36,420 nucleotides of DNA from Clostridia bacterium (lineage in GTDB: Bacteria > Bacillota > Clostridia > Oscillospirales > Acutalibacteraceae). Position numbers and translations under genes: made by a program. Location: assembly GCA_017537245.1 (NCBI GenBank), contig JAFYLD010000019.1, positions 1 through 36,420 of the forward strand, given 5' to 3'. The notes beneath the pieces were generated by a model. The model saw only the letters and a program-made list of their open reading frames with translations. It did not search any database and was not told the DNA's origin. Positions 1,858-29,944 of the stretch are shown one piece after another (position 1 is the first letter of the stretch; each line of letters begins with the position of its first letter).

Positions 1858-4800
1858 ATGAAAAATACTAAGAAGAGAGTAAATAAGATTTTATCAATAA
1901 TTTTGGCGTTGACTATAGTTGTGTCAACCTTTGCGGGACTTAGTCTTGTAAGCGCGGCAGGTAATCCAAATTTTAATAAGGTTGCCGACAACGCTACACT
2001 TGACGGCTGGAAAGAATTTTTTGGTACGTCAACCGCATCAACCAAAAATGCAGGTGGTGTTTGGACCGATAAATCGGTATTTGTTGATAACAACCACGAA
2101 GTTTTTCAAAATCTTACCGACGCTTACGGCAACAGTATTAAGCCTACCGTATCGGACGATAGTTTTTTGGTAGCTCTATCGGCGATAGCGTCAAATAAAT
2201 CAATCGTTGGTTATTCACACATACCAACCGACACCATACTTGTGCTTGACGTATCAAGCTCAATGGGTCCCGGTAACCAATCACACAATAACGATGCAAT
2301 TGCCGAGTTAGTTGCGGCGGCAAACTCTGCTATGACCGAACTTTTAGCTATTAACAAAAACAACCGTATCGGCGTTGTTTTGTACTGGGGAAGTACAACC
2401 ACCTTTTTGCCAATAGACCGTTACACAACTACCAATAAGGTTACTGGCACCGATACGCTAAAGTTTTTTGAAACAAATTCTTCAAGAAATCAGGTTACAA
2501 TTTCATCCGGTGTAAAAGACGGACAGGGAAAATCGGTTCAAGCAAAAACACAAAAAGTTCAGTCAGGCACATATATACAAGGTGGACTTGGTCTTGCGGC
2601 TGATATGTTTAAGGCAAAGAGTGACGCGAATGACACCATTATTAGTGGAGACGGCTTTCAAGCAGGAACCCAGCGCAAACCAGTTGTTGTTCTTATGACC
2701 GATGGCGCGCCTTCTTATGGTACTACTGCTTATGCTGACCCTGGTAATTCTACACTCGGCTTAAATGCTACTTCAAGCAATAATTTTGCATTTCTAACTC
2801 AACTTACCGCAGCAGCAGTTAAAAAAGATATAACAGGCTACTATAACGGTAGCGAAACAATGTTTTACACGTTGGGCTTTAAGATTGGTAGTGACGCTAC
2901 TGCAAGAAGCGTAGTTGATCCTAGAAATTCTACCTCTACTATTACAAATTTTTGGAATACGTATAAGGCGGCTAGTGTTGGTTCAAACGTAACTATTCGT
3001 GACGGCAACCAAACAGTAACCATTAAAAAGAGCGGCAAGGTTGACGATATTGTTTATAACGATGCTTATTACTCGGCCGATTCAAACGACGACCTTGAAG
3101 CAGCGTTTAACAAGATGATAAACGAAATTATCATTCAGTCACTCTATAGACCGACTTTGGTTGAAAACAACAATGCCAATATGGAAGGCTTTATCGAGTT
3201 TATTGATGATATAGGCGACTATATGAAGGTTCAAGAAATTGAAGGCATTATGGTTGGCGACAAGCTCTTTACAGGCGAAAAACTTTCTGAAAACTTCCGT
3301 ACGGATGGCGGCGATCTTGGAACGGTTGATAATCCTAACGATATGGGTAACGTTTTGGTTAGCGCAGTTCGTGAAAGACTTCAAATCGACAGTATTGCTG
3401 AAGCTCGCGAACTTATCACAAACGCATATACTCACGGTCAGTTAAGTTATAGCAAGCAGGGCTCAAAGGTTACTTTTTCTAACTATATTGGTTGGTATGC
3501 CGATGAAAACGGCAAGTATCTTGGCTTTTGGTGCGATAAACACACCTATAAAGACGTGCCAAACGGCGCTAAATACATAAACAAGTCTTACGGTATGTTG
3601 GGCGAAATATCTGACAAATATACCGAAAGTGATCTTATGTATACTTCAATTCAGGTTCACACCGAAATTGTTCCACAAGATAGATTTAATTCTAAGGATA
3701 CCGACAATGTAGTAGCGGGTCACGCGCAGCTCATCTTCCGCGTTCCGGCGGCTCTTATTCCTGTTGTAACCTACGACGTTGAACTTGAAGGCACAGGATA
3801 CGAAGATGCTAAAAATATTACAATGAACATCAGCGATGCCGAGCCTATCAGACTTTTGTTTGAGGTTGGACTTCGTGATGACGTTAATGAATATAACATT
3901 GAGGCGGCTCTAGGCAACAATCACAGAAACGCTAACGGCGAGTACGTGTTCTATACAAACCAGTGGAGCGTAGAACAGTTTGACACAATAATTGATCCTA
4001 ATAATAGCGAATACATAGCTCCTACCGAGTCGATTAATACCATCGCTTATTTTGAACCAAATTATGAAAACGAGCGTTATTATTATAACGAATTGACTCC
4101 AATCTACGTTAAGCAGGGTAGCAGTTACGTTAAATATTCTTCGGCTACAAAGCCTACTGCTAATGATGGAAATGAATATTATCGTCAAATAAATTCATTC
4201 GAACTTACCGGCAACGGCAATGAAGCGGTGCTTAAAAAGAGTTATGAAAGAATTTCTAACGCTGCTATTGCACGTATAGAAAAGAGCGATACAAACAACG
4301 GTTGGAACATAATAAAAGAAACCGTTCATCGTGTATATGATGAAATCCAGACTCCAAAGAATTCTAATTTAACCAATACCATCGGTTACTCATATTACCC
4401 AACGGTTGAACATATCGAAGGCACTCATTACTATGCCGACGCTATTCTTGGTAACAATGGTGTTCTTACAGTAACGCCTGCTACCGGTATTAGCATTACA
4501 AAGACGGTTGATGCATCTCTTGAAGGCAATACTGATGAATATACCTTTAACGTAAAAATCGGCGATGATGCGGCAAGATATAGCGTAATTCGTAAAGATG
4601 ACAAAGGTATGTTCGCGGACTTTGGCGAAAAGATAGAACTCGATTCAGAAGGCAACGGCACCATCAAATTAGTTCCGGGCGAAACTGTGCTTATCGTTGG
4701 TATTCCTGCTGGCGTTAGCTACACTGTAAGCGAAGATGTGCCATCAGGCGCTAATTACGAGGTATCAAAGAGCAGCGGTACTTTGGGCGTTATCGAGCAA

Positions 4801-6945
4801 TATCATTTATCAGCGGCAAAATTTGAAAACGCTATTCGTCAAAGCGGTAATCTTATAATTTCAAAACGTGTTGCTCATCCGTTTGGTACTACTCCTGATA
4901 GTATTTACAACCACGTATTTAAGTTTGACGCAACACTTAGTGCTAGTGGCGCTATCTATCCTGACGCTACGGTTAGTGCTTACTATTCAACTGCGCCTGA
5001 CGCTAAATTTGATCTTAACGTTGTAAACAATAAGATCGAGGGTATTGAGCTTAAGGGTAATCAGTCGATAATAATTAAGATTAAAGACGGTTGGACTACT
5101 AACGTCACCGAGCAAAGCAATATGCCTAGCGGATTTACACTTACCGATACTAACGTTTCGACAAACAAGACCGTAACAGTTGACACAAACGTTGAATACG
5201 TGTTCACAAACACCTATGCTCCAAAGAGTGTTAACGCAGACGTTGTTATCGATGCGTCTAAAGTGTTAAACGGCAGACCTTGGAATAACGACGAATTTAC
5301 CTTTGCGCTTTATCGTTACAACAAGAGTGCGGCGCAGTATGAGGAAATTGGTCGCGAAACAGTAAACAAGTCAGGTGACTTTGGCGCAAGTTTGACAAAC
5401 GCTATCAAGTCAGAGGTATTTACCGAGGTTGGTGAATATCACTACATGGTACGTGAACTTGTTCCAAACGAAACCAAGGGTGTTACCTACGATTCGAATT
5501 ATCGCATTTTCACAGTTGTTGTAACCGATAACGACACCGACGGCAAACTTGAAATTGCCGAGGTAGAGGCAGAAAACGCAGTATCAGTTGCGGCAAACGG
5601 CAACGCATACATAGTTGTGGCTAATGATTTTGTAAACGTTTACAAAGCAGAGGGTATTGCCGAAGTTACAATTGAAATTAACAAAATGGTTAATACTCCA
5701 AGCGGCATTACCTATAGCCCGGAAGGTTTTGAATTTGGCGTATATGATAACACAGGCAAACTAATAACCCCAATTCACGAAACCGATGCAAACGGTAAAA
5801 CACAGTTTACCTTTACTTATGACGCAACGGGTGTTGATTATCAAAACAACAAGGTTTATAACTACGTAATCAAGGAAAATAACACCGGTCTTGGCGGTAT
5901 AACCTATGCCGATGATATTCCGTTTACCGTAACTATAAAGGACAACCTTGACGGTACAATTAGCGCGACAACCAATATTGCCAATAAAAATGGTGACGTT
6001 TCGATTGTTGACGTTATAAACGTTTATAGCACAAAGGATATTTCCGTATCAATAGAGGCTACAAAAAAATTAAACGGTCGCGAACTTGTAGCCGGCGAAT
6101 TTGAGTTTGCACTTTCTGACTCTAACGGCAACGTTATAGCTAACGCAACAAACGATGCAAACGGCCGTGTAGTATTTGAAAGCTTAACGTTTGACAAGGT
6201 TGGTACGTACAATTACGTTGTATATGAAAACGAAACCGACGGCAAGGGTGTTACTGTAGATACTACTAAGTACGCAGTACAGGTTGTTGTAACCGATAAT
6301 AGTGTTGGCAATCTTATAGCAACCGTTAAAGTTAACGGCACTGTAGTTAACGGCTCTACCGCAAGTGCAATAGTGTTTGAAAATAGCTATAAGGCGGCAA
6401 AAACCGATATAGTTGTTTTGGCTCAAAAGGTGCTAGAAGGTCGCACGTTGTGTGACGGCGAATTTGAGTTTGAACTTTATTATGGCGACACTCTTATCGC
6501 AACTGCAAAGAACGACGTTGACGGAAACGTTAAGTTCGAGAATATTGTTGTTGAGGATGCGGGCGAGTACGAATTTACTGTAAAAGAGGTTAAAGGTAAC
6601 GACGAGAACGTTGCCTATGACGAAACGGTTTATACAGTAACAGTTACTGTTACCGATAATCTTGACGGTACTCTTAGCTTGGATTACGTATATGCAAACG
6701 GTGAAGAAGAGGTAGAGGAAATAGTGTTTAACAACAAATATATTGAACCTACTCCCGATCCTGAACCAATGCCAGATCCAGAGCCTACTCCAGAACCTAA
6801 ACCACAACCAGAACCTACACCTCAACCCGAATCACCAAAAACCGGTGATGGAGTTAACCTTGCAGGTTGGTTAGCGGTAATGTTCTCAAGCGGTGCAATA
6901 CTTTTTGCAACGGGCAAAAAACTTAAAAAGGTTAAAAATTCATAA
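1858..6945 (+). CDS. Giant VWA-domain surface protein with pilin-type isopeptide domains and sorting signal
   Basis: The 1695-residue product is exported and wall-anchored. Residues 1-33 are a signal peptide (KR-rich start, hydrophobic core, then SAAG). A von Willebrand factor A domain has the MIDAS motif DVSSS at 131-135 and TDG at 281-283. A Cna-B-like middle region follows (about 870-1120). Then come domains like the streptococcal pilin isopeptide linker (Spy0128 type) at about 1124-1260, 1265-1385, 1393-1510 and 1515-1628. Three of these open with K-x-L-x-G-R (Lys 1135, 1403, 1524); the last two close with FENSY or FNNKY, the expected Lys-Asn crosslink partners. A Pro-rich spacer (1630-1658), SPKTG sorting motif (1659-1663), hydrophobic helix and KKLKKVKNS tail end the protein. 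No sortase gene is in the window. Likely role: adhesion or a pilus-tip-like stalk. AAAGGA precedes the start, and a strong terminator follows. Confidence 0.9.
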   Translation: MKNTKKRVNKILSIILALTIVVSTFAGLSLVSAAGNPNFNKVADNATLDGWKEFFGTSTASTKNAGGVWTDKSVFVDNNHEVFQNLTDAYGNSIKPTVSDDSFLVALSAIASNKSIVGYSHIPTDTILVLDVSSSMGPGNQSHNNDAIAELVAAANSAMTELLAINKNNRIGVVLYWGSTTTFLPIDRYTTTNKVTGTDTLKFFETNSSRNQVTISSGVKDGQGKSVQAKTQKVQSGTYIQGGLGLAADMFKAKSDANDTIISGDGFQAGTQRKPVVVLMTDGAPSYGTTAYADPGNSTLGLNATSSNNFAFLTQLTAAAVKKDITGYYNGSETMFYTLGFKIGSDATARSVVDPRNSTSTITNFWNTYKAASVGSNVTIRDGNQTVTIKKSGKVDDIVYNDAYYSADSNDDLEAAFNKMINEIIIQSLYRPTLVENNNANMEGFIEFIDDIGDYMKVQEIEGIMVGDKLFTGEKLSENFRTDGGDLGTVDNPNDMGNVLVSAVRERLQIDSIAEARELITNAYTHGQLSYSKQGSKVTFSNYIGWYADENGKYLGFWCDKHTYKDVPNGAKYINKSYGMLGEISDKYTESDLMYTSIQVHTEIVPQDRFNSKDTDNVVAGHAQLIFRVPAALIPVVTYDVELEGTGYEDAKNITMNISDAEPIRLLFEVGLRDDVNEYNIEAALGNNHRNANGEYVFYTNQWSVEQFDTIIDPNNSEYIAPTESINTIAYFEPNYENERYYYNELTPIYVKQGSSYVKYSSATKPTANDGNEYYRQINSFELTGNGNEAVLKKSYERISNAAIARIEKSDTNNGWNIIKETVHRVYDEIQTPKNSNLTNTIGYSYYPTVEHIEGTHYYADAILGNNGVLTVTPATGISITKTVDASLEGNTDEYTFNVKIGDDAARYSVIRKDDKGMFADFGEKIELDSEGNGTIKLVPGETVLIVGIPAGVSYTVSEDVPSGANYEVSKSSGTLGVIEQYHLSAAKFENAIRQSGNLIISKRVAHPFGTTPDSIYNHVFKFDATLSASGAIYPDATVSAYYSTAPDAKFDLNVVNNKIEGIELKGNQSIIIKIKDGWTTNVTEQSNMPSGFTLTDTNVSTNKTVTVDTNVEYVFTNTYAPKSVNADVVIDASKVLNGRPWNNDEFTFALYRYNKSAAQYEEIGRETVNKSGDFGASLTNAIKSEVFTEVGEYHYMVRELVPNETKGVTYDSNYRIFTVVVTDNDTDGKLEIAEVEAENAVSVAANGNAYIVVANDFVNVYKAEGIAEVTIEINKMVNTPSGITYSPEGFEFGVYDNTGKLITPIHETDANGKTQFTFTYDATGVDYQNNKVYNYVIKENNTGLGGITYADDIPFTVTIKDNLDGTISATTNIANKNGDVSIVDVINVYSTKDISVSIEATKKLNGRELVAGEFEFALSDSNGNVIANATNDANGRVVFESLTFDKVGTYNYVVYENETDGKGVTVDTTKYAVQVVVTDNSVGNLIATVKVNGTVVNGSTASAIVFENSYKAAKTDIVVLAQKVLEGRTLCDGEFEFELYYGDTLIATAKNDVDGNVKFENIVVEDAGEYEFTVKEVKGNDENVAYDETVYTVTVTVTDNLDGTLSLDYVYANGEEEVEEIVFNNKYIEPTPDPEPMPDPEPTPEPKPQPEPTPQPESPKTGDGVNLAGWLAVMFSSGAILFATGKKLKKVKNS

Positions 6946-21647: not shown

Positions 21648-22190
21648 GTGCTAACAGATGATTTGGATGTGAAGATTGCGGGCGATAAGCCGTCAGAGGA
21701 CGTTCGTCGCAATAAGAATAATCCTGTGCAGAATTCGTCTGTGAGTTCTGAACAGATTAAGGCTGCTAAAGCGATAGGTAAAGCTGTTGCAAACAGCTTT
21801 ATTCGTGATGCCGAAACCGAGGTTGACGAAGAATTTCGCGACTTTGATATGATAGTACAAAGAAGATTGCTACTATCATTTACTGCTACCGCCGGATTTG
21901 AAAAGTACATTGGTAACGATACGCTTGACGGTATCGCGCAAAAGAGTTTTCTTGATACTATAAATAAGCATAGTACAGAACTATATAAAACCTCTAGCGA
22001 TACGGGCGCGTTTTCGTTTTATTATCTTGCTTTTCGTAGAGGTAGCGAGGTTGAGCGCCGCATAGGTCAAACCTTTGCAATGCTTTGTTCACACGATGGC
22101 GACCCGATTTTTCAAGAACTTGGCGAAGCATTATATTGCTGGTTCTTGTCGGTAGTTCGCAAGGCAGTAGCCGAATATTTAAACGCTTAA
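21648..22190 (+). CDS. Unknown soluble protein at the end of the rpoD operon
   Basis: I do not recognise this 180-residue protein. It starts with GTG at 21648, 5 bases after AAAAAGGTGA. Residues 1-35 are polar and probably disordered (SVSSEQ, NKNNP). The rest appears alpha-helical, with AAKAIGKAVANSFI, a basic RRLLLSF stretch, YYLAFRRGSEVERRIGQTFAML and a C-terminal WFLSVVRKAVAEYL helix. There is no signal peptide, membrane segment or catalytic motif. It is the last gene before a strong terminator, 16 bases after the TSCPD gene, so it is likely read with dnaG-rpoD. Confidence 0.75.
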   Translation: MLTDDLDVKIAGDKPSEDVRRNKNNPVQNSSVSSEQIKAAKAIGKAVANSFIRDAETEVDEEFRDFDMIVQRRLLLSFTATAGFEKYIGNDTLDGIAQKSFLDTINKHSTELYKTSSDTGAFSFYYLAFRRGSEVERRIGQTFAMLCSHDGDPIFQELGEALYCWFLSVVRKAVAEYLNA

Positions 22191-22350: not shown

Positions 22351-23133
22351 TTATTTTACGTTATATAAAATTTTAGCATTTTTTGCGGTGAGGGTTAGTA
22401 TTTGCTCGGGGGTTTTACCACGTATCTCGGCGATTTTTTCGGCGGTGTATTTTATTAGTCCCGAGTGACACAACTTGCCGCGATATGGCTCGGGGGCAAG
22501 GTAGGGGCAATCGGTTTCTACCAGTAATAACTCGTCGGGAATCATTTTGACTACGTCGGGTAACTTTTTGGCGTTTTTAAAGGTGATAACACCACCAACA
22601 CCAATATATAACCCAAGTTTTATTAGTTCTTCTGCCATTTCGACACTGCCCGAGTAACAATGCACAACACCCTTTGGTTTGTGCTTTTTTAGTATTTCAA
22701 GAGTGTCACCATGCGCATCGCGATCGTGGATGATAATTGGCAAATCAAGTTCTTTGGCAATGGCGATTTGCTTTTCAAAGATTTCGATTTGTTTTTCTTT
22801 GTTATCACTTACCCAGTAATAATCAAGACCAATTTCACCAATTGCAACACATTTGGGGTGTTGCGCGAGCTCGCGTATTTGCTCGGGTGTTGTGCCGCTA
22901 TCTATACTACCTGGGTGAATACCCACCGCCGCATAGACAAAGTCATAATCCTCGGCCATTTTGATAGCCGCTTTAGATGAATTTTGGTCACAACCACAGG
23001 TTACTATGCCGCAAACACCGTTTTGGTGCATTTCGCGAAAGAGCTCGTCACGTATTGGGTCAAAACGCTCGTCCTCGTAGTGACAGTGTGTGTCAAAAAT
23101 AGGGTAGGAGTTTTTTAAATCTTCGCTATACAT
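22351..23133 (-). CDS. tatD: TatD-family metal-dependent hydrolase (nuclease)
   Basis: The 260-residue TIM-barrel hydrolase has FDTHCHYED (first metal histidines), the glutamate in GEIGLDYYW, IIHDRDAHGD, HCYSGS and ETDCPYLAPEP. These are the TatD/YcfH motifs. TatD proteins are DNases with 3'-5' exonuclease activity and a possible D-aminoacyl-tRNA deacylase role in some lineages; the neighbour metG is a common partner in Firmicutes. The start is taken as the ATG at 23133, which overlaps the metG stop in TAATG, pointing to translational coupling. An in-frame TTG at 23148 has no room for a ribosome site. Confidence 0.93.
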   Translation of the reverse strand: MYSEDLKNSYPIFDTHCHYEDERFDPIRDELFREMHQNGVCGIVTCGCDQNSSKAAIKMAEDYDFVYAAVGIHPGSIDSGTTPEQIRELAQHPKCVAIGEIGLDYYWVSDNKEKQIEIFEKQIAIAKELDLPIIIHDRDAHGDTLEILKKHKPKGVVHCYSGSVEMAEELIKLGLYIGVGGVITFKNAKKLPDVVKMIPDELLLVETDCPYLAPEPYRGKLCHSGLIKYTAEKIAEIRGKTPEQILTLTAKNAKILYNVK

Positions 23134-25058
23134 TATCTGATTTTGCAACCTTCTGGAATATCGTCAACAAATATTACCTTAACGTCGTCGTTAGGGCAGT
23201 CTGCCGCTAGTATCATACCGCTTGACTCAACACCGCAAAGTGTGGCAGGCTTTAGGTTAGACACAACGATTACGTTGCGACCGATAAGCTCGTCAGGGGT
23301 ATAGTATTTAGCGATACCAGACGCTACTGTACGTGGCTTGCCGCTACCATCGTTAAGGGTGAGTTTTAATAGCTTTTTAGCCTTTGGAATTGGCTCGCAA
23401 GCCATTATTTTTGCGGTAGTAAGTTCTACCTTTGCAAAATCGTCGATAGAGATTTCAGGTAGTTTTACTATATTTTCGGCTTTTGCTGCTTCTTCGGCTT
23501 TTTTAGCCTGTTCTGCGGCGATTTCTTCTAGTACCTTTGGCATATCGATACGCGCAAAGAGTGGTGTAGCCTCGCCAACGGTAAATTCGCCTACTTTACC
23601 AAATGAAAGCTCGGTGTTGTCGCTATTGATTTGTGCGGCAATACTCTTGCAGCTTGATGGAATAACAGGGGTAAGCATAATACCAAGAAGTCTAATGCCT
23701 TCGAGTAGGTTGTAAAGAACTGCGTTAAGACGTGGTAGAGTAGCCTCGTCCTTGGCAAGAATCCAAGGGGTTGTTTCGTCGATATATTTGTTTAATCGTT
23801 TTGCAAAGTTCATAACGCACTCGCAAGCGTCTGCGTTGCGATAAGCGTCCATAAGCTTGTAGTATTTGTCGATTGTTTCTTTAGCGGTTGCGATAAGTTC
23901 GTTATCAAGGTCCTCGTTAGCGGTAGGCGCAGTTACCTTGCCACCAAAATACTTGTTTGTCATAGCAACGGTACGATTAACGAGGTTGCCAAGGGTGTTT
24001 GCTAGGTCGGAATTAAACTTGGTAATAAAGCTCTCGTAAGTGATGGTACCATCGTTTGTAAATGGAATTTCACTAAGCAAGTAGTAACGAACAGCATCAA
24101 TGCCAAATCGAGCGGCAAGCTCGTCAGCATAGATTACGTTGCCCTTTGACTTAGACATTTTGTCCTCGCCTACTAGCACCCATGGGTGACCTAGAACCTG
24201 TTTTGGTAGTGGTTCACCAAGTGCCATAAGTATAATTGGCCAGTAAATGGTATGGAAACGAACGATATCTTTACCAATAACGTGCAAATCAGCAGGCCAA
24301 AGTTTTGCGTACTGGTCGCTGCTGCCGTCTGGGTTGTAACCAACGCCTGTGATATAGTTTGATAGAGCGTCGATCCAAACGTAGATAACGTGTTTGTCGT
24401 CAAAACTTACAGGCACGCCCCATTTGAATGAAGAACGTGAAACGCAAAGGTCTTGAAGACCGGGTTTGATAAAGTTGTTGAGCATTTCGTTTTTGCGAGA
24501 AACAGGCTGAATGAAGTCTGGATTTTGCTCAAAATACTCTACAAGTCTGTCTTGATATTTTGAAAGACGTAGGAAATATGCCTCTTCTTTAGAGTCGATA
24601 ACCTCGCGACCACAGTCAGGGCATTTGCCGTCTATAAGCTGACTTTCGGTATAGAAAGATTCGCAAGGAACGCAGTATTTGCCCTCGTAGGTGCTCTTGT
24701 AGATATCGCCTTGTTCATAAAGCTTTTTAAATATCTTTTGAACAGCGTCTTCGTGATAATCGTCGGTGGTACGAATGAACTTGTCATAGCAAGTGTCTAG
24801 AGAGTCCCAAACTGCCTTGATATTAGCGGCAGCATTGTCGACAAATTCTTTTGGTGAAATGCCGTCTGCCTTTGCATATTCTTCTATCTTTTGACCGTGT
24901 TCGTCTGAACCTGTCATTAGATATACGTCAAAGCCCATCATCTTTTTGTAGCGGGCAATCATATCTGCAAGTACAATGTCATAAGCGTTGCCTATGTGTG
25001 GTTTGCGCGATGCGTAGGCAATCGCAGTTGTGATGTAAAATTTTTGTTTGTTTTCCAT
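23133..25058 (-). CDS. metG: Methionyl-tRNA synthetase
   Basis: The 641-residue class I synthetase charges tRNA-Met. HIGN at 21-24 is the HIGH motif and KMSKS lies at 300-304. The zinc knuckle CVPCESFY...CPDCG sits between about 125 and 150. After the anticodon-binding helices, residues about 540-641 form the EMAP/Arc1-like tRNA-binding domain (FAKVELTTAKI to the C-terminus), found in long dimeric bacterial MetRS. The start is the ATG at 25058 after AGGAGG, 12 bases from the stop of the 913-residue gene, so it belongs to the rlmB operon. Confidence 0.97.
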   Translation of the reverse strand: MENKQKFYITTAIAYASRKPHIGNAYDIVLADMIARYKKMMGFDVYLMTGSDEHGQKIEEYAKADGISPKEFVDNAAANIKAVWDSLDTCYDKFIRTTDDYHEDAVQKIFKKLYEQGDIYKSTYEGKYCVPCESFYTESQLIDGKCPDCGREVIDSKEEAYFLRLSKYQDRLVEYFEQNPDFIQPVSRKNEMLNNFIKPGLQDLCVSRSSFKWGVPVSFDDKHVIYVWIDALSNYITGVGYNPDGSSDQYAKLWPADLHVIGKDIVRFHTIYWPIILMALGEPLPKQVLGHPWVLVGEDKMSKSKGNVIYADELAARFGIDAVRYYLLSEIPFTNDGTITYESFITKFNSDLANTLGNLVNRTVAMTNKYFGGKVTAPTANEDLDNELIATAKETIDKYYKLMDAYRNADACECVMNFAKRLNKYIDETTPWILAKDEATLPRLNAVLYNLLEGIRLLGIMLTPVIPSSCKSIAAQINSDNTELSFGKVGEFTVGEATPLFARIDMPKVLEEIAAEQAKKAEEAAKAENIVKLPEISIDDFAKVELTTAKIMACEPIPKAKKLLKLTLNDGSGKPRTVASGIAKYYTPDELIGRNVIVVSNLKPATLCGVESSGMILAADCPNDDVKVIFVDDIPEGCKIR

Positions 25059-25070
25059 TTTGTATTCCTC

Positions 25071-27812
25071 CTACGGTTTTCGAATGAGAAAACCGATTAT
25101 TGATAAAACAGTTGTGCCTAAAGCGTATAGCGAAATTAGTTCTGCATCCGGCATGGATTTAGCGCCGGAGAAAGCCGCGTACACAAAGTAAAGCGCGCCA
25201 AATATTGCAAATATAGAATAAAGCACAGTAAGAATTCGATTGCACTTATTTATGTTGGTAGCGCAGTTTACTATTTTTATAAAATTAAGACCGGTTCCGC
25301 GGAAAATAGCGGGGGATGAGCAACTTTGTGTGTCGGGTACTGCGTTTTTGTACATGTGCAGACCTGCGTTTGACATAACTTTAACCGAGTCTTCATATAG
25401 GTCAAAGTAGTCGCACAACATTGCTTCATTTACGTTTGGATCGCAGTTTTCGACAAGTAACAAAACACCGAGGTCGGTAATTTTGTGTAGTTCTTTTGCA
25501 ACTGCGGCATCAACGTCGTATTGTATGATTATAAGCGCGCAGGCGGTGTTTGACGTAGCAACGTAAACGGGGAAGTAGCCTTGACGTAAAATCTTTTTGT
25601 CAACCTCAAGACTAGGTATTTCGATACCGTGCGCTTGCATTAGTGAACGGTTGCCTATAAACATAGGCTCGTTATCTACCCAACCCGATATACCAAGATT
25701 TTTTTCATATTTAACGGTGTCAGAGTCTGGGATAGAGTAAGAGGTATTTGTGCCGGCGATTTCTTCAAAAATTGGATTTAGCGGACTGCCAACCGCTTTT
25801 GTAAGAGAAGCGGCGCGTAGCAAAATCGCATCGATATTATTGTTTGACAAAACTTTCATATCGTGTAGGGTTATTGTGCCTTTTGGGAAAATATCGTTTA
25901 CGTTTATGACTGCGGCGTTTGCGTTTTCGATTTTTTCGGCGGCGTAAATACCTGCTATCATAGCGCCCTTGCCGTTTAACTTTTTAGCGGCGGAAGATAA
26001 CGGTAGGTTGTCGATAAGAAATGCTGTAGGAATAGCTGCTATACTTACAACACTTGTTGCGGCAACCATAGCGTTATATATATCATTTTCTAAAAAGAAG
26101 GTAATCATACCGCACGTTAATGCTAAAGCGAGCGTTACGTAAAAAACGATAGAAACCTTACCCGCCATAGTAGCGTGATAATCATAGTGTTTCATAAAAT
26201 TCTCGACAAAACGAGTCTTTTTGTGCGCCGCTACCAAAATATCGCCCTCGATAGCGTGCTTTGCCATAGCAAAGGTGGTGGCAGGGTCGTTTATAAGTGT
26301 TACGGCATTTTTGGGATTATCGTTTACTATTTTTTTAAGACTAGCGTGCTTTGCCGACGTTGCTCTAAACTTGAATAGCGCGCGTACAAAAAGCATGATA
26401 GCGCATAAAAACATGAGTAAAAACGAGTCGTGGCTTGTAAATGCAGATACAAGACCGAGTGATAACGCGAGTAGTGAGTATAAAGCGGCTATAATATCAA
26501 AACTAGCGCGTTTGGTTGTTAGATTTTTAAAATCTACAAACATATTAGCGTTTGATAAAACCGATATAAACAAAAATGCGGTACAGGTTATCATTGCGCT
26601 TTGAGAATTGTATAATCTTAAGTTGCGCATTGAAGGTATAAAGAATGCAGAGAGAGCAATTATTACAAGAAAAGAGAAAATGGCGCCTAAAAAACAAGAG
26701 CGCTTTTTCTTTGCGAGTGATAAAAGTATTTTTTTGCCGCTTTGGTTATCGATATATTCGTTTTGTGGTTCAAAGTCGTCAAAATCAGTATGCTCTAGTT
26801 GAGGAGCAGAGTGGCTTGAAATATCCTCGGGTACGTTATCGCCAAGGTCAATGTGTTTGGTTACGCTGCTTATCGTTATATGGTCGGTATTGCCTTTGTG
26901 GTCTTTTACTGGTGTAAAACGAATTGTAGCGGTGTTTGAAATAGGTGGCTCGTTAGAAATACCAACCTCTTTTGTGTCGATATCCGAGATATCGGGCACG
27001 CTGATATCGGGCATTTCTTTTGGCTTTTCTTGTTGAAATAGGTTCTCGTAAAGCTTGCGATTTTCGCGAGCTTCGGCGTCGTTTACCATCTGTTCAAACG
27101 CAGGGGTAGGTGTGACGTTTGTCATATTTTTAGGCGGTATAAACTCTGCCTTTTTTTCTTCTACCACAGGTGGCGCAGGAGTTTGGTTTTTGCCTAAATC
27201 TTCTACAACAAAATCAAGACCGTATTTTTTTGAAAGGTTTTTCATAGCGTTTTCGCTATTGTTTTTTAGTATTTCGGCAACGCTTTCAAGTTCGTAAAGA
27301 GGTTTTTGCGTTTCGGTAACGTTATGTCCTTGTTCATCGATGGTGTATCGTTTAACCTTTTCGACAAGCGATTTTTTTGGAATAACGATAGCAGGAGCAA
27401 CCTTTGTGGGTTGTTCTTCTGGATTTTTTGCGATAACGTTGTCGGTTTTGACTTCGTTCTTGATTTCAGGCTTTACTTCGGCTTTTGTTTCAACCGTTTC
27501 TTCTATTTTTTCTTTTGTATCAGTTTCAGGTTTAAGATAGACCTTCGTTGTTTCTGCCTTTACTTTATCGTTTGCTTTATTGGTATCGTTTTTAGAAGTT
27601 TCGGGTGCGCTCATGCGCTTTTTTAGCGCATCAAGAGCGTTGTTGTTTTGGTATTGTTGGTTCTCGTCATTAAATACCCAAAGACCTGAAACCTCATCGG
27701 CTGTAAAGGCGTGAGGCGCTAGATTTTTGTCGCCCGTTATTTTAATGGGTTCATCATCGGTATTGATGATAAAACCATTGTTTTCTTCTTTTCTTTTAGA
27801 GAAAAATCCCAT
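25071..27812 (-). CDS. P1B-type ATPase-like membrane protein lacking the catalytic Asp (pseudo-ATPase)
   Basis: This 913-residue protein has a polar, probably disordered N-terminal region (1-370), then a layout like a heavy-metal P-type ATPase. Four membrane helices (about 374-480) are followed by an actuator-like region (about 490-560), two helices with IPT at 594-596 where metal pumps have CPx, a large cytosolic part (615-850), and two last helices (855-910). The cytosolic part keeps N-domain features: GISGWVD (707-713), FIGNRSLM, and SPL (676) in place of HPL. The phosphorylation loop DKTGT is absent; the aligned stretch reads NDIFPKGTITL (Asp640 to about 649). The TGD and GDGIND hinge motifs are also missing, with DPN (791-793) nearby. 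Pumping by the usual cycle is therefore unlikely. It lies between rlmB and metG in one operon. The P-type relation is my reading; role unknown. Confidence 0.7.
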   Translation of the reverse strand: MGFFSKRKEENNGFIINTDDEPIKITGDKNLAPHAFTADEVSGLWVFNDENQQYQNNNALDALKKRMSAPETSKNDTNKANDKVKAETTKVYLKPETDTKEKIEETVETKAEVKPEIKNEVKTDNVIAKNPEEQPTKVAPAIVIPKKSLVEKVKRYTIDEQGHNVTETQKPLYELESVAEILKNNSENAMKNLSKKYGLDFVVEDLGKNQTPAPPVVEEKKAEFIPPKNMTNVTPTPAFEQMVNDAEARENRKLYENLFQQEKPKEMPDISVPDISDIDTKEVGISNEPPISNTATIRFTPVKDHKGNTDHITISSVTKHIDLGDNVPEDISSHSAPQLEHTDFDDFEPQNEYIDNQSGKKILLSLAKKKRSCFLGAIFSFLVIIALSAFFIPSMRNLRLYNSQSAMITCTAFLFISVLSNANMFVDFKNLTTKRASFDIIAALYSLLALSLGLVSAFTSHDSFLLMFLCAIMLFVRALFKFRATSAKHASLKKIVNDNPKNAVTLINDPATTFAMAKHAIEGDILVAAHKKTRFVENFMKHYDYHATMAGKVSIVFYVTLALALTCGMITFFLENDIYNAMVAATSVVSIAAIPTAFLIDNLPLSSAAKKLNGKGAMIAGIYAAEKIENANAAVINVNDIFPKGTITLHDMKVLSNNNIDAILLRAASLTKAVGSPLNPIFEEIAGTNTSYSIPDSDTVKYEKNLGISGWVDNEPMFIGNRSLMQAHGIEIPSLEVDKKILRQGYFPVYVATSNTACALIIIQYDVDAAVAKELHKITDLGVLLLVENCDPNVNEAMLCDYFDLYEDSVKVMSNAGLHMYKNAVPDTQSCSSPAIFRGTGLNFIKIVNCATNINKCNRILTVLYSIFAIFGALYFVYAAFSGAKSMPDAELISLYALGTTVLSIIGFLIRKP

Positions 27813-27834: not shown

Positions 27835-28614
27835 TTAGTTTTTTCTTTTTCTTACAACTTCGTACATAAGTACGCCTGCGGCAACCGAAGCGTTGAGTGA
27901 GTTGATTTTGCCGCACATAGGAAGAGATATAATGCCGTCGCATTTTTTAGCAACCAAAGTACCGATGCCCTTGCCCTCGTTACCAATAACGATAGCGCAG
28001 GGGATATCGTAGTCGGTTTGTGTATAAGGAGCGCCGTCCATATCTGCGCCAAACACCCAAATGCCTTTTTCTTTAAGCTCGTCAATGGTGTTTGAAATGT
28101 TGGTAACGCGAGCAACCTTCATATAAGCGAGCGCGCCGGCTGAAGTTTTTTCAACAGTAGCGTTAAGCGATGCCGAGCGACGCTTTGGAATAATGATACC
28201 ATGCACACCACAAGCCTCGGCTGTACGAATAATTGCGCCTAGGTTATGTGGGTCTTCGATTTCGTCACAAATTACGATGAATGGTTTTTCATTTCGTTCT
28301 TCGGCGGTTTTTAGTATTTCCTCAACGGTAGAATACTCTTGACTTGCGATCATAACCGCAACGCCCTGGTGGTTAGCGCCACCGCAGTAGTAATCTAGTT
28401 TTTGAGGACTGATTTCTTTAATTAGTATTCCGCGAGCGGCACACTTTGCGCGAATAGCGGTAACCGAGCCGCCTGTTACGCCGTGTGCAATAAGAAGTCG
28501 GTCGATTTCGCGACCCGAACGCAAAGCCTCCATAACAGGATTACGGCCGTATATAATATTGCCTTGTTTTGAATCAAGGTTTTCTCTGTTGTTTTCTTTA
28601 GTATTAAAATCCAT
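27835..28614 (-). CDS. rlmB: 23S rRNA 2'-O-methyltransferase, RlmB/SpoU family
   Basis: The 259-residue protein has an N-terminal substrate-binding domain (YGRNPVMEALRSG, about 22-95) and a SpoU domain with a knotted SAM site. SpoU motifs seen: DEIEDPHNLGAIIRTAEACG, VIGNEGKGI and SLPMCGKINSLNASVAAGV. In Escherichia coli RlmB methylates G2251 of 23S rRNA; other SpoU relatives act on tRNA, so the target is likely rather than certain. The start is the ATG at 28614, 5 bases after GGGTGA; longer in-frame starts run through AT-rich leader sequence with the extended -10 element. It is first in the operon with the pseudo-ATPase, metG and tatD. Confidence 0.92.
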   Translation of the reverse strand: MDFNTKENNRENLDSKQGNIIYGRNPVMEALRSGREIDRLLIAHGVTGGSVTAIRAKCAARGILIKEISPQKLDYYCGGANHQGVAVMIASQEYSTVEEILKTAEERNEKPFIVICDEIEDPHNLGAIIRTAEACGVHGIIIPKRRSASLNATVEKTSAGALAYMKVARVTNISNTIDELKEKGIWVFGADMDGAPYTQTDYDIPCAIVIGNEGKGIGTLVAKKCDGIISLPMCGKINSLNASVAAGVLMYEVVRKRKN

Positions 28615-28642
28615 AAAATCACCCATAAATTTATATATATAA

Positions 28643-29944
<1,302 letters not shown>

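Follow-up and report, generated by a model that had tools for sequence, protein, structure and literature searches.

The window, i.e., the whole analyzed stretch of 36,420 nucleotides, carries on its minus strand a gene for a protein of 913 amino acids, which had been predicted to be a degenerate P1B-type ATPase encoded between rlmB and metG. The coordinates of the open reading frame and the annotation of the neighbors agreed with this placement, and the gene contains no internal stop codon. The gene and its neighbors are:

25071..27812, minus strand: pseudo-P1B-ATPase gene, 913 aa, identified by a CopA profile match and alignment to intact pumps
27835..28689, minus strand: rlmB (SpoU-family rRNA methylase), the upstream neighbor, separated by a gap of 22 bases; conserved
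23133..25058, minus strand: metG, the downstream neighbor, in the genus only
22351..23148, minus strand: gene for a tatD-family DNase, the next downstream gene on the same strand, in the genus only

A Pfam search with the 913-aa protein returned no model at its cut-off, and a match to Yeast-kill-tox (E 0.084, below the cut-off) was taken as chance. Likewise, only weak Pfam matches were obtained with the C-terminal parts of the 37 proteins in alignment A1, the best with an E value of 0.0033. Searches of defense and phage libraries yielded no match.

The relationship to P-type ATPases was recovered in searches with profiles. The NCBIfam CopA model NF007952 matched residues 548–791 with an E value of 1.9e-12, which is far below the model's own curated cut-off, and a CopA match at E ≤ 0.01 was found for 28 of the 37 A1 members. 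CopA from Legionella (3rfu) was matched with an E value of 7.7e-6 when the single window protein was the query, and with 6.5e-34 when the family profile was used. The family profile was also aligned by hhalign with a profile of four intact P1B pumps from the same order, which gave 99.8% and an E value of 6.4e-29 (515 columns). Two deletions stand out in this alignment: the actuator has lost its TGES half, and the P domain its GDGxND part. Judged by these comparisons, the homology of the window protein to P1B ATPases exceeds chance, and the profile searches together with the profile-profile alignment indicate common descent and colinear domains.

The original prediction had listed eight hydrophobic segments in P1B order, and the family-mean hydropathy indeed gave eight. 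In the topology predicted from hydropathy, two cytosolic regions interrupt them, as in P1B pumps. The following parts of the protein were assigned, in the order of the polypeptide:

26367..26705, minus strand: hydrophobic segments 1–4 (P1B MA, MB, M1, M2), residues ~370–482, from hydropathy and alignment; constraint is lowest here in both pairs compared
26166..26366, minus strand: remnant of the actuator, shortened and lacking the TGES loop, from alignment and span lengths
25977..26165, minus strand: hydrophobic segments 5–6 (M3, M4), residues ~550–612, from hydropathy and alignment
26025..26033, minus strand: IPT (594–596) at the CPx position within M4; in the window protein, the helix-breaking Pro is kept and the Cys is lost
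25878..25904, minus strand: NVNDIFPKG (637–645) replacing DKTGTxTxG, with Asn637 at the phosphorylated Asp, from alignment
25578..25832, minus strand: N-domain, residues ~661–745, with SPL (676–678) for HPL, GISG (707–710) and GNR (720–722)
25434..25442, minus strand: DPN (791–793) at the TGDN position
25083..25247, minus strand: hydrophobic segments 7–8 (M5, M6), residues ~856–910, preceded by the GDGxND deletion

The lengths of the spans between these parts are not uniformly affected. The span from M2 to M3 has a median of 73 aa (range 60–84, n = 98), compared to 138 aa in all four intact P1B pumps, and the distance from TGD to M5 is 71 aa instead of 103 aa. The distance from the P site to TGD is 149 aa versus 145–150 aa in intact pumps. 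Therefore, the N domain has kept its full length, and catalytic parts have been cut out.

P-type ATPases are textbook pumps with a cycle that depends on one Asp. The state of this and the other motifs was quantified in 98 members, i.e., the window protein, 15 proteins of its genus, 22 order representatives, and 60 further order members, which were aligned together with the four intact pumps as motif reference. In the window protein, the phosphorylated Asp is replaced by Asn637. The whole DKTGT motif was present in none of the 98 members; the Asp column still contained Asp in 29 of them, but Lys never followed and was absent from its column throughout (0/98). The Gly column never contained Gly, but Asp (63) or Glu (28) instead. 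Next to these columns, a new Phe (84/98) and a new Pro (81/98) are shared by most members. Neither the 76 named relatives nor 30 further order members, mostly low scorers, had DKTGT at the P site (0/76 and 0/30), and thus no case of the kind set against the original prediction, a homologue with an intact DKTGT, turned up in any of the three sets. A DKTGS found once, in the member L165, lies at residue 199 in the N-terminal arm, away from the P site.

The other catalytic motifs were lost to different extents. TGES was absent from all 98 members, with gaps in the Glu column in 93 and in the Ser column in 97. GDGxND was likewise never present (0/98); the first Gly and the Asp were gapped in 98 of 98, and the second Gly column was gapped in 57 and never contained Gly. 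The TGD motif was partly retained, with Asp in 94, Thr in 52, and Gly in none of the 98 members, so that it was nowhere found as a whole. In the window protein, its Asp is D791 within CDPN, and the Thr and Gly are gone. The original claim that neither TGD nor GDGIND is present thus held for GDGxND and has to be corrected in part for TGD. The remaining details of that prediction, i.e., IPT at 594–596, the GISGWVD...FIGNRSLM stretch, SPL, and NDIFPKGTITL, were all at their places in the sequence and the alignment, and its description as a P1B-type protein without phosphorylation site agrees with Asn637 at the P site and the profile homology to intact pumps. Since the Asp, the Lys, TGES, and GDGxND are absent, established knowledge of the family leads us to expect no P-type cycle.

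In comparison with CopA (the P1B-1 Cu+ ATPase; 3rfu, NF007952, TIGR01525), the pseudo-ATPase thus shares the domain order, the eight hydrophobic segments, the N-domain core, the GN turn, the Asp of TGD, and the M4 proline, whereas the window protein lacks the phosphorylated Asp, TGES, GDGxND, CPC, and the His of HP. Furthermore, CopA has metal-binding domains, and the pseudo-ATPase has a long polar N-terminal arm in their place.

The gene is under purifying selection. Against two relatives of the genus, dN/dS was 0.095 and 0.106 overall, 0.216 and 0.183 for the first four membrane segments, and 0.022 and 0.041 for the P/N part, where pN was also lowest; in these two pairs, synonymous sites are near saturation, and beyond it for M3–4 in one pair. 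For a pair of relatives without saturation, the overall dN/dS was 0.166. Most of the 70 best-conserved positions fall in the headpiece. None of the charged residues among them is inside a hydrophobic segment, and R/K376 and D/E439 are at segment edges. The cytosolic P/N headpiece is therefore the most constrained part of the protein.

A match to the window protein was found in 57 of 60 relatives. The 76 named relatives are mostly metagenome-assembled genomes from gut, feces, and rumen with the titles Clostridia, Oscillospiraceae, or Ruminococcaceae bacterium. The order was then represented by 197 genomes, each at least 90% complete except the window's own genome; we presume that this order corresponds to Oscillospirales in GTDB. 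In 192 of the 197 genomes, the profile of the degenerate form matched at E ≤ 1e-49. The other five gave only matches of 1e-20 to 1e-29 that carry an intact DKTGT and are intact P1B genes. The degenerate form was seen in 24 of 25 family codes, two of which (f12 and f24) were counted from a separate search, and the remaining code (f5) is one 55%-complete genome. Reading at the sequence level covered 111 of the 192 matches, i.e., the window, 20 representatives, 60 others chosen for spread, and 30 more that were mostly the weakest scorers, so that neither of the two latter sets is random.

Outside of the order, the degenerate form was not found in the samples. In a class sample, in which up to five candidates were scored per genome, all 12 matches at E ≤ 1e-40 were within the order, and 231 genomes had none; the 20 of these 231 that were listed are all outside of the order. 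A phylum sample of 199 genomes included two order members, and only two of the other 197 reached 1e-35 (8.2e-36), both with intact pumps. Two side observations concern particular genomes of the order. The five order genomes without the pseudo-ATPase include both sampled genomes of genus code g57 (G092 and G150), which have intact P1B genes, a possible natural loss. In L047 (4124–6557), a single in-frame TGA splits the frame between two long open pieces, which could be due to recoding, a genuine split, or an error in the sequence.

P1B genes above the TIGR01525 cut-off coexist with the degenerate form in 38 of 40 relatives, while the window's own genome, which is 79.6% complete, gave no TIGR01525 match at E ≤ 1e-40. 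One clean split was obtained in a tree built from 36 degenerate and 21 intact sequences (support 0.815/1.0 on either side of the root), and the intact pumps, which are separate genes, are all opposite to the degenerate sequences. This split would fit a single origin of the degenerate form, for which it is weak evidence because the branches are long. The degenerate form was probably fixed once early in the order and has been retained since.

The original prediction had also placed the gene in a housekeeping operon. The neighborhood is conserved for rlmB, which immediately precedes the gene in 97 of 98 loci, but not for metG. A script had found rlmB in 95 of the 98, and inspection of the three misses showed that rlmB precedes the TGA-split copy in L047 and overlaps an apparent wrong start in L219, so that both were counted as linked, whereas in L067 an obgE-like gene takes its place. 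The L067 gene is also downstream of rplU- and rpmA-like genes, as named by a look at the sequences. Among the 30 further loci, rlmB was found in 24, that is, in 24 of 24 with more than 204 upstream bases; the remaining six have at most 204. On the downstream side, metG and tatD follow the gene in the window and in all 15 genus loci, but in none of 22 other families, and metG was therefore rejected as conserved context. Outside of the genus, the downstream genes vary by family and include EF-G-like, Era, Lon, GuaA, and other genes, named by a look at the sequences only.

The distances between RlmB proteins and between pseudo-ATPases were correlated, with a Mantel r of 0.774 (97 loci; 0 of 999 permutations) and of 0.632 when the genus was left out (81 loci; 0 of 999 permutations). 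Joint inheritance of the pair would produce such a correlation, but so would the common ancestry of the genomes by itself. The linkage may also reflect a shared promoter only, or an old neighborhood that was left undisturbed. The link to RlmB is real as gene order and a candidate only as function.

The predicted polar N-terminal extension of 370 residues is real in the window protein and includes the following conserved blocks:

26703..27812, minus strand: polar N-terminal extension, residues 1–370, containing conserved blocks that the 15 genus sequences of A2 share
27195..27374, minus strand: block 147–206 (Y.DE.G...PLY.LESVAEIL...KY), conserved in the genus
26976..26990, minus strand: ISDID block (275–279), in 15 of 15 rows of A2 and in only 53 of the 76 named relatives
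26847..26927, minus strand: T.RFTPV...ISS.T..ID block (296–322), conserved in A2

Across the order, the arm varies from almost none, in proteins of about 550 aa, to more than 900 aa. It is nearly absent in ten members of family code f10 with 541–555 aa (L055 and nine further loci), and therefore it cannot be needed everywhere. A short acidic-hydrophobic motif resembling [FY]-S-[ILV]-[DE]-[DE]-I-L-x-E was found in the arm of 15 of 79 order loci outside of the genus (shuffles: mean 0.03, maximum 1), and a looser form of it in 26 of the 79 (shuffles: mean 1.5, maximum 6). The window's own pseudo-ATPase does not contain the motif.

Whole-genome scans with this pattern did not reveal a partner. In 23 genomes, there were five matches, three of them in the pseudo-ATPase gene by position, and the two others were chance-like upon inspection. 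In 30 genomes, 12 of 20 matches were in the pseudo-ATPase gene by position, compared to two matches in a reversed control; ten of the 20 were inspected and comprised two in the pseudo-ATPase, seven chance-like matches, and one ABC-2 permease. In 197 genomes, 30 matches were obtained (control: 1), of which 21 were in the pseudo-ATPase gene by position, two could not be placed, and seven were elsewhere, including that of L244. As most of the inspected matches elsewhere were chance-like and the window gene is devoid of the motif, no common partner sharing it can be inferred. The L244 gene (228–1538, minus strand), from another genome of the order, was named by a look at the sequence as an ABC-2 polysaccharide-export-like permease, with an N-terminal FSIDDILAE peptide and a polar arm.

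By the usual definition, an enzyme homologue that has lost its catalytic residues and is nevertheless conserved, the protein is, on the sequence evidence, a pseudoenzyme. That it represents a conserved, non-pumping P1B pseudoenzyme can be proposed with high confidence. The parts for pumping have been lost, yet the gene is nearly universal in the order and is adjacent to rlmB, and therefore it probably serves another purpose. The conserved non-pumping role of the original prediction fits these results, because DKTGT was absent from the P site in all three sets of members and the intact pumps are separate genes; the ligand sensing or scaffolding that it named as examples is a candidate reading.

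Because the constraint is concentrated in the cytosolic headpiece, we infer that the headpiece may bind something and that the membrane part would anchor it. The eight-segment membrane part would then mainly serve as an anchor, and the headpiece, with a wall formed by G-x-S/A-G...GN, a D-h-F-P-x-G turn, and an x-D-P-N turn, would be the working surface, to which a partner protein or a nucleotide-like ligand could bind. The N-terminal arm, where present, might add a docking peptide. Given the adjacent rlmB, the partner could be part of translation or of ribosome maturation; this is the weakest step of the proposal. Overall, a P1B-derived, non-pumping pseudoenzyme with the headpiece as binding surface appears to be the best explanation and is somewhat favored. 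For the headpiece acting specifically as a membrane-anchored binding or scaffold module, the chances seem about even. Cooperation with RlmB or in ribosome maturation is doubtful. It is quite unlikely that the protein is an order-defining membrane hub, coexpressed with RlmB and derived from a dead copper pump, that would tie ribosome maturation or translation to the membrane with the former ATP-binding head as sensor and the N-terminal peptide as docking arm.

A related possibility, tentative and rather unlikely, is a sensor for nucleotides or metabolites in which the N domain would weakly bind ATP, ADP, or a relative and signal via the headpiece. This would be consistent with the retained N-domain length (149 aa from the P site to TGD), the strongest constraint in the P/N part, and the conservation of the second Gly of GxG (95/98) and the Gly of GN (98/98). 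However, the His of the HP dipeptide, whose Pro is kept in 57 of 98 members, and the Glu with which it is paired in the P1B nucleotide site are both missing in all (0/98).

A passive or regulated channel for ions or metals derived from the pump would make the membrane part the working part. The eight segments in P1B order are indeed retained, the helix-breaking Pro of M4 is present in 63 of 98 members, and P604 is conserved at 82% (weighted). This reading is nevertheless improbable, as segments 1–4 are the least constrained part, the first and the second Cys of the CPx site are each found in only two of 98 members (CP together in one), and none of the 70 most conserved positions holds a charged residue inside a segment.

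If the protein were a HAD-type enzyme that is still active and uses a shifted D-x-D/E nucleophile at the DIFP turn, this could account for the acid at the +3 position (91/98), D-x-D/E at the turn (52/98), the Thr at the TGD position in 52 members, and the weak match of the Pfam HAD hydrolase model in two of the 37 A1 members (best E 0.012). Yet GDGxND, the segment that contributes the second Mg-binding acids, is gone in 98 of 98, and the first acid is missing in the window protein (V638) and likewise in most genus rows of A1, which makes such an enzyme very unlikely. A solitary CopA copy, or one in recent decay towards a pseudogene, would explain the lost catalytic motifs, but the same loss across 24 family codes, the stop-free window gene, the purifying selection, and the conserved new motifs leave it hardly any probability, and the order-wide conservation of the sequences already refutes it.

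Excerpts of PMC12134183 describe a human protein, TMEM94/ERMA, with a P-type-like architecture that, like the pseudo-ATPase, has no TGES, and whether it can run a P-type cycle is disputed there; in excerpts of PMC13322241, it is argued to be a Mg2+ ATPase. Unlike the pseudo-ATPase, it is described in the former as having ten helices and a proposed phosphorylation site, D417, and the likeness is one of architecture. Bacterial pseudokinases and other pseudoenzymes, as far as partial texts describe them, have likewise kept a catalytic fold for binding or regulation after catalysis was lost, but their folds differ from that of the P1B-type pseudo-ATPase. Among the matches listed in the open-licence literature, there was no description of a bacterial P-type pseudoenzyme or pseudo-ATPase.

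Almost all sampled members of this order of gut bacteria retain a P-type version without the Asp site, TGES, and GDGxND, which in most relatives sits beside intact pumps. Therefore, the P-type fold can apparently be reused stably for another purpose, and the family offers a natural test of which P-type parts serve binding and which serve catalysis. At the same time, a near-universal membrane protein of the order that is outside of every Pfam family is named as a target for genetics.

Two further genes of the window were observed. A 180-aa open reading frame (21648–22190, plus strand) follows a sigma-70 gene and has no Pfam or PHROGs match, and the region 1858–6945 (plus strand) encodes a protein of 1695 aa with FctA isopeptide, DUF7601, and VWA domains, which is probably a surface protein.
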